Position numbers and translations under genes: made by a program
Assembly (NCBI GenBank): GCA_016938195.1
Contig: JAFGVC010000058.1
Coordinates: forward strand, 1-56,825
Source: Tissierellales bacterium
GTDB lineage: Bacteria; Bacillota; Clostridia; Tissierellales; Dethiosulfatibacteraceae
Length of the DNA: 56,825 nt
Direction of reading: 5' to 3'
Notes under the pieces: generated by a model
Databases searched by the model: none
What the model saw: the letters and a program-made list of their open reading frames with translations, nothing else
What the model was told of the DNA's origin: nothing
Part shown: positions 28,727-51,637 of the stretch, piece by piece
How positions within the stretch are numbered: position 1 is the stretch's first letter
Layout: every line of letters starts with the position of its first letter

Positions 28727-29584
28727 TTATTGTATGCCAGGTACATTTCCGATATAAACACGTTTTAGGTGCTTTTGAGCTATTTTTTTGGCTTGAATCA
28801 AGGTTTCTACTTTCGTAGGCGGATGGTCCATCTTATAAGCCGGAAAGTATCTTGAAAGGTGTAGGGCTATGTTGTCATCAATCGAAGCAATCCATTTAAA
28901 CATTTCTTCCAGTTCATCCATTTGATCGTTTTCTTGTTCCACAATCAATGCCGTTATTTCCAGATAGGACATTTTGGAGATAAGTTTAATTGACTCGAGT
29001 ACAGGTGCCTTCGCTCCCCGACACACGTTTTTGTAAAACGCGTCTGAAAACGACTTTAAATCGACGTTGAATGCGTCAATATAGGGAATCAAATCGCCAA
29101 GTGGCTTGAGGTCAATAAAGCCGTTTGTAACACAAACAGTGGCTATATTTCGTTTCTTTGCTAAATCCGCAATATCCATCATATACTCAATCCAAACCAC
29201 AGGTTCGTTGTAGGTGAAAGCAACCGATTTTAACCCCAACTGATAGACTTCCTCTATGATTTCTTCAGGCGTCATCCGAATAAAGGGCGGATTTTTATCT
29301 AAAGCAATGCGGTGATTTTGACAAAAAAGACAACTGAGATTGCATCCACGACTGCCATAGGACATAATTTTCGATCCCGGCATAAAATGGTATAGTGGTT
29401 TCTTTTCGATAGGGTCTATTGCTTTGGAAGTAATAACGCCATAGTTGAGTGTCATCAATCTACCTTCTATGTTTTTCCTCTGTCCACACAGCCCACATTG
29501 ATTTTTTAAAATCAAACAATGGTGAGGACAGAGTTGACACCTAATCCCTTTTGCTTCTTCTGACCAATAAAGCGCTTCCTTCAT
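28727..29584 (-). CDS. amrS: AmmeMemoRadiSam system radical SAM enzyme, C-terminally short
   Basis: A 285-residue radical SAM protein. The N-terminal cysteine cluster (C16, C19, C23, C30, C33) precedes the radical SAM motif GCNLSCLFCQN (C81, C85, C88). It is the third partner of the AMMECR1/MEMO pair, encoded 9 bases upstream. The family usually continues after the VYIGNVPG motif with a cysteine-rich zinc ribbon of about 45 residues; here the chain stops at VPGIQ. The stop codon is followed by a copy of part of the nearby terminator stem, hinting at a 3' deletion. The enzymatic core is intact. Confidence 0.87.
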   Translation of the reverse strand: MKEALYWSEEAKGIRCQLCPHHCLILKNQCGLCGQRKNIEGRLMTLNYGVITSKAIDPIEKKPLYHFMPGSKIMSYGSRGCNLSCLFCQNHRIALDKNPPFIRMTPEEIIEEVYQLGLKSVAFTYNEPVVWIEYMMDIADLAKKRNIATVCVTNGFIDLKPLGDLIPYIDAFNVDLKSFSDAFYKNVCRGAKAPVLESIKLISKMSYLEITALIVEQENDQMDELEEMFKWIASIDDNIALHLSRYFPAYKMDHPPTKVETLIQAKKIAQKHLKRVYIGNVPGIQ

Positions 29585-29593
29585 ATTAACCTC

Positions 29594-31003
29594 CTAATAA
29601 TGGCGAACAACCTGAAATCTTTGCAATTCATAGGTTTCCCATGGTTGAATACCCGCCTTCCGGAGTGCTATGGATAACTGCTCATCAATTGAATTAACGC
29701 CATCAAGATTCGGTAATAGCAGTCCCTTTTTATGACCTCGCGAAACAATCACACCATATTTTTCGACGTCCAATTGCTCTTTCGATGTAATTTTTTCCGG
29801 AGGAAATAAAACATCTACAGAATAAACTAAATTTTCTAGTTCTTCTTTTTTTACCGGATAAAATCTTGGGTCATAAAGGCCTGCACTGATTGCATTAGCT
29901 ATAATTTCCTGGGCAATATTATCTTTTGTCGGTTCAATGGTTCCAATACAACCTCTTAATTGACCCTCTTTTTTGATTGAAACAAATACCCCTGATTTTT
30001 TTGTCATAAGCTCTTGAGGGAGATCTAATTCCTTTAATTTGATTTCTTCTCCCACACTCACCATTGTTTCTAATGCTTTTCTAGCCAATTGCACTAGCGC
30101 GTCTTCCTTATTTCTCATCTTTTTGATAGAAGAATTGTTTTGCTCCTGTATCAGATTGTATATTTCCATATCTTTTGATTTTTTGATTACTTTAAGTGAC
30201 ACACAGCCATAACCGACTCCAAAAGGACCCTCATAAGAGAGCACTTCATTTTCTGTAGTCAATCCATCCAATGCCCCCATCATTATTTGAATCGATCTTA
30301 ATCCGCATTCGCCTGCTTTTTCTGCCAATTTACTATCCATTGTCATGATGTCGACTCTTTGATTGGCTTGCAGATAAGTCATCATTTTTTCATCAAATAT
30401 TTTTCCTTCTTTGGCATATCCCGAGGGAGCTTGACGTGTCAATCTGTGCGATAAATCACCGCTGGCAATCACAACCACTTTTTTATCTAATTCCTCAGCG
30501 GCTCTCTGGATAGCTTGTCCAAAGGCGTATAGCTCTGTGTTTTTAAGTAGCCCATAAGTGATATGGATTAATTGGAATTGCTGATAATGATGAAGAATAT
30601 AAGAAAGAGGAACCAATGCTCCGTGATCAATTCCTTCATCAAGATCATAGTCTTGTTTAAGCTCTTCATCCAACTTTAAAACAGGAATATGCATCCGTTC
30701 TGAAATAGACATAATAGCGTCCGCAAGCTCAAGATCATTGTCGAATGACATTTGAATGTGTTCGTATCCAAAGGAAGCGAAATTTCCTGTCAACTTTTGT
30801 TTGTAGTGAACTACGACTGCGTCTCGGAAAAGATTACCGTGTGGTGTTATCAAAATAATCGTTTCCGGATCAAGTGAACGAATCAATGAACCAATCTCGT
30901 TCATGGCGTGTATTGTCTTTTGAATTTTCTTCTCTTCGCCTTTTCCGATTTCCGGAAGAATTAAAGGAGGATGAGGCATCAAAAAACCGCTCATTATCGT
31001 CAT
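29594..31003 (-). CDS. AmmeMemoRadiSam A-B fusion (MEMO/LigB-like plus AMMECR1 domains)
   Basis: A 469-residue protein. Residues 1 to about 275 form a class III extradiol-dioxygenase-like (MEMO/AmmB) domain, with HPPLILPEIG, TPHGN, DHGALVPL and ASGDLSHR supplying metal-type histidines. About 305-469 is an AMMECR1 domain with the invariant LRGCIGTIEP. The radical SAM partner follows 9 bases on, forming the complete AmmeMemoRadiSam triad. Eukaryotic homologues are known, but the joint bacterial function is not established; a role in modifying a macromolecule has been proposed. ATG behind GGAGGG. Confidence 0.9.
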   Translation of the reverse strand: MTIMSGFLMPHPPLILPEIGKGEEKKIQKTIHAMNEIGSLIRSLDPETIILITPHGNLFRDAVVVHYKQKLTGNFASFGYEHIQMSFDNDLELADAIMSISERMHIPVLKLDEELKQDYDLDEGIDHGALVPLSYILHHYQQFQLIHITYGLLKNTELYAFGQAIQRAAEELDKKVVVIASGDLSHRLTRQAPSGYAKEGKIFDEKMMTYLQANQRVDIMTMDSKLAEKAGECGLRSIQIMMGALDGLTTENEVLSYEGPFGVGYGCVSLKVIKKSKDMEIYNLIQEQNNSSIKKMRNKEDALVQLARKALETMVSVGEEIKLKELDLPQELMTKKSGVFVSIKKEGQLRGCIGTIEPTKDNIAQEIIANAISAGLYDPRFYPVKKEELENLVYSVDVLFPPEKITSKEQLDVEKYGVIVSRGHKKGLLLPNLDGVNSIDEQLSIALRKAGIQPWETYELQRFQVVRHY

Positions 31004-31084: not shown

Positions 31085-31591
31085 TTATTTTATTTTGATA
31101 TATTCGACAAAGCGCTTTCTTTCAATAAGTGATTTAAATAGGACTACTCCCACTATGGATACTACCACAAACTCGCCAATTGAAACGAAAAATATTGACG
31201 GAAGCAAGGGTAAATCAAACATATAATATAACTGTAAACCAATAATGATACCATTTGTAATAACAGGTGCAAGACTTGCAATAAATAAAGCCTTCAATCC
31301 ATTACCCAATTTATTGCTTATATAAGCAATAAATATAAGCGCTATAAAGGTTGCTGTAGTTCCAAATATAACATCGATTATGCCAAGCGGGCTGAATAAA
31401 TTAGCAACAGCGCATCCCAATGTCAATCCCGGAATATAGGACGGATCAATAAACACGATTAACACCAATAACTCTGAAATTCGAAATTGAATCTGTCCAT
31501 AGCTAATATACTGGAATGCCAACGTAATGGCAACATATAGAGCCGCCATCAAAGCATTTCTAACCATATAATTTATTGTGCTTTTTTTCAT
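31085..31591 (-). CDS. queT: queuosine precursor transporter QueT
   Basis: A 168-residue membrane protein of five or six helices, the QueT (COG4708) family of ECF S components that import preQ0/preQ1 or related queuosine precursors. ISYGQIQFRISELLVLIVF and GCAVANLFSPLGIIDVIFGT are the family signature. It would need an energising module; ecfA1-ecfA2-ecfT are encoded nearby at 33.5-36 kb. It has its own leader, discussed separately. ATG with GGAG. preQ1 riboswitches commonly control this family. Confidence 0.9.
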   Translation of the reverse strand: MKKSTINYMVRNALMAALYVAITLAFQYISYGQIQFRISELLVLIVFIDPSYIPGLTLGCAVANLFSPLGIIDVIFGTTATFIALIFIAYISNKLGNGLKALFIASLAPVITNGIIIGLQLYYMFDLPLLPSIFFVSIGEFVVVSIVGVVLFKSLIERKRFVEYIKIK

Positions 31592-31694
31592 AAAAAAAAC
31601 TCCTTTAACATTTTTAATGTTTCTGGAGTACCAACTGAAATGAATAGTTTACTCATTTCTTGTTTTTTAAAGTGGGTACCAAGAAAACACTTTG
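31592..31694 (-). ncRNA. structured queT leader, candidate preQ1-type riboswitch
   Basis: On the minus strand, P1 AAAGTG/CACTTT carries a 13-base loop with GGTACC; P2 GAAATGA/TCATTTC follows; then a linker with GGTACTCC. ACTCC pairs with GGAGT of the queT ribosome-binding site, around a second stem AACATT/AATGTT. The loop bases GTACC can pair with GGTAC, using the first two bases of ACTCC, so a pseudoknot and ribosome-binding-site sequestration exclude each other. queT is a classic preQ1 target. I could not match the consensus of preQ1-I; classes II and III could not be tested. Confidence 0.55.
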
Positions 31695-31709
31695 TTACTT
31701 ATAATAGAT

Positions 31710-31734
31710 TGCGCCGACCTAAAAAGTCGGCGCA
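31710..31734 (-). terminator. terminator-like hairpin after rpsI
   Basis: TGCGCCGAC and GTCGGCGCA form a perfect 9-pair stem with a 7-base loop. The minus strand lacks a clear U-tract, so it may only partly terminate the rplM-rpsI transcript. Confidence 0.6.
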
Positions 31735-31746
31735 TAAATGAAAATA

Positions 31747-32136
31747 TTAACGTTTTGAGAATTGAGGTGAACGACGGGCTTTTTTTAGGCCGTATTTCTT
31801 TCTCTCTACCATCCTTGAATCTCTTGTTAAGAAGCCTGCTTTTTTAAGTATCGGTCTTAAATCCAAGTCAGCTTCCAATAATGCTCTTGAAATACCATGT
31901 CTAACAGCGCCTGCCTGTCCGGTGTATCCGCCACCTTTAACTGTACAATTGATATCAAAGCTGTCAATGGTATCTGTAATAACCAATGGCTCTTTTACAA
32001 TTGTCTTTAAGGTTTCATAATCGAAATAAGTATCTATATCTCTTTCATTAATGACTATTTTACCTGTTCCAGGCGTCATGAATACTCTTGCAATAGCTTT
32101 TTTTCTTCTACCGGTTCCGTAATATTGCGTTTTCAT
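31747..32136 (-). CDS. rpsI: 30S ribosomal protein S9
   Basis: A 129-residue S9 with the N-terminal [13 protein letters not shown] and the conserved C-terminal [17 protein letters not shown] tail, whose last residues reach the P-site tRNA on the ribosome. It follows rplM by 17 bases, the universal L13-S9 pair, and shares its promoter inside truA. Confidence 0.97.
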
Positions 32137-51442: not shown

Positions 51443-51637
51443 TGTGTTACCTCCCTTTTTTCGTATTGTAACCTTCCATACGATAAGGCAATTCCCATGT
51501 ACACCCTGCCAGGTGTTTTCTATATTTTTTTTAAATATAGGAATTCCTTTTCGCCTTGCTTTTAGCAAGACATACTCCGCAAAAATTACCCGGTTTTCCG
51601 GCAACCTCTTGCATCTTCGCATGCGGCACACTGAAAT
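51443..51637 (-). promoter_or_regulatory. structured leader of the S10 operon
   Basis: On the minus strand several stems are seen. AAGGAATTCC (51540-51549) pairs with GGAATTGCCTT (51485-51495) with one bulge and encloses two hairpins: CTATATTT/AAATATAG (51520-51540) and ACACC/GGTGT (51501-51516), a three-way junction. Upstream lie CTTGC/GCAAG and CCGG-AAAA-CCGG. No open reading frame is needed here. An autoregulatory leader, for example bound by L4, is likely. Confidence 0.6.

Follow-up and report, generated by a model that had tools for sequence, protein, structure and literature searches.

The window, a 56,825-nucleotide contig of a Tissierellales bacterium (JAFGVC010000058.1), carries the only queT gene of its genome on the minus strand, with an ATG start codon at 31591 directly after a run of eight T residues. 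The queT leader (positions 31694-31592, minus strand) reads 5' to 3' as AACAAAGUGUUUUCUUGGUACCCACUUUAAAAAACAAG-hairpin-AGUUGGUACUCCAGAAACAUUAAAAAUGUUAAAGGAGUUUUUUUUAUG and is immediately preceded by rpsI; its parts are collected in Table 1. The segment that separates rpsI from the aptamer holds a strong GC hairpin (31710-31734, minus strand), which was flagged as terminator-like in the terminator scan and may be the end of the rplM-rpsI transcript; no promoter consensus was found in the window between this hairpin and the aptamer. Directly after queT (28727-31003, minus strand) lie genes for a fused LigB/Memo-like and AMMECR1 protein and for a radical SAM protein, an AmmeMemoRadiSam-like pair; an AMMECR1-like gene is seemingly also kept beside queT in the relative G003 (L049). 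The only Rfam family to reach its gathering threshold in the window is an S10-Clostridia ribosomal protein leader (51551-51625, minus strand, 44 bits), and close to the queT loci of relatives are a Moco riboswitch (L050, 1233-1353, minus strand) and a glycine riboswitch (L047, 2112-2204, plus strand).

Table 1. Features assigned to queT and its leader
Feature	Positions	Strand	Basis or remark
Variant preQ1-I aptamer (R1 match)	31658-31694	minus	own covariance model, 60.5 bits, E 5.5e-10 in genome; window sequence is part of the model
P1 5' strand AAAGUG	31688-31693	minus	pairs with 31669-31674; P1 covaries over 86 distinct sequences
L1 UUUU	31684-31687	minus	UU invariant in 86/86
P2 5' strand CUUG	31680-31683	minus	pairs with CAAG; 100% of cells paired, nearly invariant
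L2 GUACC	31675-31679	minus	last C is the presumed ligand-specificity base; CC before P1' in 86/86; pairs with 31628-31632 in antisequestor
P1 3' strand CACUUU	31669-31674	minus	pairs with 31688-31693
L3 A-tract (AAAAAA)	31663-31668	minus	sequence; AA invariant
P2 3' strand CAAG	31659-31662	minus	complementary to P1-loop CUUG
Second hairpin, variable spacer between aptamer and linker	31637-31659	minus	fold; absent or different in relatives
Linker GGUACUCC	31625-31632	minus	GGUACU pairs with L2 in predicted ON state; ACUCC is anti-SD in predicted OFF state
Nested antisequestor (predicted ON fold)	31616-31691	minus	31691-31684 with 31623-31616, 31680-31675 with 31632-31627, 31673-31671 with 31636-31634; MFE
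SD-sequestering hairpin ACUCC...GGAGU	31599-31629	minus	pairs in 28/28 leaders; inner stem varies in sequence, stays paired
ACUCC anti-SD	31625-31629	minus	complementary to GGAGU 31599-31603
Inner stem AACAUU/AAUGUU	31616-31621 / 31607-31612	minus	within SD hairpin
Shine-Dalgarno (SD) GGAG	31600-31603	minus	sequence
U8 tract between SD and AUG, terminator-like tail	31592-31599	minus	run of 5-8 T in all 28 leaders sharing this platform
queT, preQ1 ECF-transporter S component, putative regulated gene	31591-31085	minus	Pfam PF06177 QueT, 140 bits, E 6.4e-41

The original prediction described the AAAGUG/CACUUU hairpin with GGUACC (31680-31675) in its loop, the second hairpin and the linker, the complementarity of ACUCC to the queT ribosome-binding site, and the stacked AACAUU/AAUGUU stem, all of which we find on the minus strand. 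It understated two features: the loop-linker pairing is part of a longer set of helices, described below, and CUUG in the P1 loop also pairs with the CAAG downstream of the A-tract, a pseudoknot of the class-I type. An A run lies between P1' and P2' in every aligned row, and the base directly 5' of P1', where class I has its specificity base, is C in 86/86 distinct sequences. Covariation in homologous leaders, proposed earlier as a check, is strong in P1. Across the 86 sequences P1 and P2 together show 57 two-sided changes, compared to 15.7 +/- 2.9 in shuffled alignments (0/500 reaching the observed number), with 96% of cells paired; all of these changes except one fall in P1, where three of the five pairs show them. 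P2 is paired in every cell and almost invariant, with a single C-G to U-A change, and its pairing thus rests on complementarity, as it hardly varies. No variation is seen in UG/CA at the upper end of P1, in the UU of L1, in UUGG, or in the CC before P1'. The alignment behind these figures is model-based, as a MAFFT alignment misplaced P2' because L3 varies in length.

Searches with the Rfam models point to the same class at a score that falls short of the Rfam cut-off. The class-I model PreQ1 (RF00522) matches 31696-31654 with 21.3 bits against a gathering score of 39 (E 0.056 for all 4227 families over 500 bases), and this is the best match to the model in the whole 2.5-Mb genome; the gathering score is a detection threshold and not a defining structural feature. 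P1, A-tract, and CAAG tail all align to the model, which skips the loop and leaves it as a local end. Two other genomes of the same family show the same sub-threshold match before queT (L067, 25.8 bits; L060, 20.6 bits). All other Rfam families were rejected at the queT leader, none being above threshold there. The earlier statement that the leader does not fit preQ1-I is thus correct as to the cut-off and the unaligned loop, but it runs against the genome-best match and the conserved P1, P2, A-rich L3, and C before P1'. Its proposed alternatives, a divergent member of class II or III or else a new, unrelated class, are in our estimate very unlikely. That proposal drew on the absence of a visible class-I consensus, and queT is among the usual targets of classes II and III, which likewise control it with the SD occluded and, in class III, through a pairing distant from the pocket as in the queT leader. 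Yet the Rfam models for preQ1 classes II and III find nothing in 31400-31900 even at E 10, these classes differ in architecture (HLout), the P1/L3/P2' frame fits class I, and the class-I architecture is kept in 100 relatives. The leader is, on its sequence, very probably a divergent preQ1-I (class I) variant and not a new class on present evidence.

A comparison with the described types of preQ1-I shows some disparities. Like the type II aptamers of B. subtilis queC and T. tengcongensis, the variant forms an H-type pseudoknot of P1 and P2 with an A-rich L3, a C before P1', and queuosine genes downstream. The T. tengcongensis (Tte) aptamer ends in a CAAGG tail, which resembles P2' of the queT leader. 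Unlike type II, the variant has an L2 of the form G-N-A-C-C and a full CUUG/CAAG P2; in the queT leader of the window the SD is placed some 60 nt further downstream, within a hairpin of its own that carries a U-tract, and the antisequestor uses L1, the P2 5' strand, L2, and P1'. Type I (C. antarcticum; the canonical L272-L281 of the same order) likewise has P1, an A-rich tail, and the niche before queT, but differs in its CUAAGG tail and in passing the Rfam cut-off. The C before P1' is preceded by U in type I (UC) and by A in type II (AC) (PMC11625349), whereas CC stands there in 86/86 variants, so that the variant is filed under neither described type. Three leaders (L014, L033, and L048) have CUUG in P2 with AAC or AAACC before P1' and look like intermediates towards type II. 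Judged by its sequence, the frame is that of class I, although the variant conforms fully to neither type, and the type II set of McCown 2014, whose consensus lies outside our comparison, may already list the subgroup; among the papers searched, none joins preQ1 riboswitches with Peptoniphilus or Anaerococcus.

The variant is common in its own order. Our covariance model of it (R1), built from queT leaders collected from relatives, finds a match in 111/249 genomes of the order, nearly always once each, while a phylum-wide sample of 398 genomes adds only two weak matches; the Rfam PreQ1 model is above its cut-off in only 10 of the same 249. Where queT was mapped, 52/56 R1 matches are on its strand and no more than 1 kb ahead of it, 42 of them at most 150 nt away and 10, at about 720 nt, ahead of an operon in which queT comes last; the seed of the model overlaps the leaders tested, so that the linkage of seed members is not independent, but most matches are outside the seed. 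The remaining four are a match in G076, whose contig ends within the operon, and three weak matches. This linkage argues against a constitutive leader or a ligand-free attenuator tied to the ribosomal protein gene rpsI, as the position of the window leader might suggest; in G002, G003, and G006 other sequence precedes the same leader, and in G002 and G006 a promoter-like TTGCNN-17-TATWAT element, read by eye, lies ahead of it. We regard this explanation as extremely improbable.

In ten genomes (L245, L246, L250, and similar) a RaSEA-like radical-SAM gene (TIGR01210, below cut-off), possibly a queuine-salvage lyase, lies between the aptamer and queT. Such operons, an L2 length unlike that of the type-II-like L033 and L014, and the CC that replaces the AC or UC of the described types (PMC11625349) would all suit an aptamer that uses the same frame to sense a related 7-deazaguanine (queuine or preQ0) or two ligands, with CC marking a changed pocket. 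Two ligands are known for type I (PMC11625349), and the CC leaves room for altered ligand recognition. Nonetheless, the presumed specificity C is retained, queT is by family a preQ1 transporter, and a canonical preQ1-I occupies the same place ahead of queT in another genome of the order (G148), and we consider this reading improbable. A broader version takes the CUUGG-N-ACC-CA loop as the mark of a fourth preQ1-I subtype that is widespread in one order and escapes the Rfam model, and that has a changed pocket favouring some other 7-deazaguanine, for example queuine, or binding at another stoichiometry; this, too, seems to us unlikely, if marginally less so.

Expression platforms vary among the carriers of the aptamer: the SD lies inside the P2 tail in 46 parsed leaders, others have classical terminators, and 28 leaders share the arrangement of the window. 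Misparsed matches, G066, L174, and L188 among them, were disregarded, and G066 was corrected manually. The 28 leaders fall into two families, f1 (six leaders including the window) and its sister family f19 (22 leaders). Folding of the window leader, in calculations that ignored pseudoknots, gives as MFE (-22.4 kcal/mol) a nested antisequestor and not the sequestered form. Its helices, AGUGUUUU with GAAACAUU, GGUACC with GGUACU, and ACU with AGU, open P1 and P2 and engage the anti-SD together with the 5' arm of the hairpin that holds the SD. The original prediction had the loop GUACC pair with GGUAC of the linker as a pseudoknot. That pairing is present, and GGUACC is matched by a GGUAC linker in 6/6 leaders of f1, although only 1.1% of CTCC-ending 11-mers would pair equally well with the loop; but it belongs to a much longer set of nested helices, and a kissing pseudoknot with P1 closed is replaced by this predicted fold. 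Nor is pairing of L2 with the linker a general rule: it holds over 5 bp in f1 and fails in f19, where UUCUUGG pairs with CCGAGAA, CACU of P1' pairs with AGUG of the linker, and the A residues of L3 pair with the U-tract. Likewise, the L3 A-tract of B. subtilis preQ1-I is part of an antiterminator (PMC11625349).

An equivalent antisequestor fold is possible in all 28 leaders, and the nested energies of the ON and OFF forms differ by no more than about 5.5 kcal/mol, P2 and the ligand not being counted. The antisequestor is stabler than with a shuffled linker and arm at p<=0.05 in 21/22 leaders of f19 and 3/6 of f1; the leaders are related, so that these and our other p-values are not independent and are descriptive. 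Departures in the 3' strand of the antisequestor still pair with the aptamer, and G082 alters both strands. The idea of a two-state leader before queT, in which GGUACC competes with sequestration of the ribosome-binding site most likely under the control of preQ1, thus gains support, the leader folding better than its shuffles (z -2.3).

We think it likely that the leader is a divergent preQ1-I riboswitch that turns queT off when preQ1 is plentiful. This proposal draws on P1 covariation, P2 complementarity, queT linkage, and conserved alternative folds, each shown by sequence comparison, with the ligand, the direction of the switch, and the share that transcription termination would have in it inferred. 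Without ligand, the P1 5' strand with L1, the GGUACC of L2, and part of P1' would pair with GGUACU of the linker and with the 5' arm (GAAACAUU) of the hairpin that follows, leaving the SD free for translation of queT. With preQ1 paired to the C before P1', the H-type pseudoknot of P1 and P2 would be stabilized; the ligand-stabilized aptamer and the antisequestor are mutually exclusive because the latter breaks P1 and P2, and the linker and hairpin arm would be freed. ACUCC could then pair with GGAGU and the inner stem close, burying the SD just before the U8 tract and blocking translation.

The same closure may also end transcription. The same riboswitch might act mainly in this way, with ACUCC...GGAGU and U8 forming an intrinsic terminator that includes the SD only incidentally. 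The T run stands right after the stem throughout the 28 leaders and before the start codon in 0/46 leaders with the SD in P2, and a U-tract as SD spacer is uncommon in the genome, where only three GGAGT6-ATG strings occur, one of them inside queA. Against this, the stem, at -5 to -10 kcal/mol, is weak and has internal loops, it was left unflagged in the terminator scan, and it holds the SD, so that sequestration alone suffices. We consider predominant termination possible but doubtful, and retain sequestration of the SD as the principal proposed step.

Repression of a preQ1 importer by preQ1 fits what can be expected of the host. The genes tgt and queA are adjacent in the genome and a convincing QueC is absent from it, with only weak partial matches within longer frames; dependence on imported preQ1 is therefore expected. 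The leader offers a clear example of an antisequestor that recruits the strands of the aptamer itself, and its sequestering stem is at the same time a terminator-like hairpin. The variant pocket differs at the base adjoining the specificity C, the position by which the described types are told apart. As the Rfam model misses a subgroup as common as this one, preQ1 regulation is under-annotated in the order.
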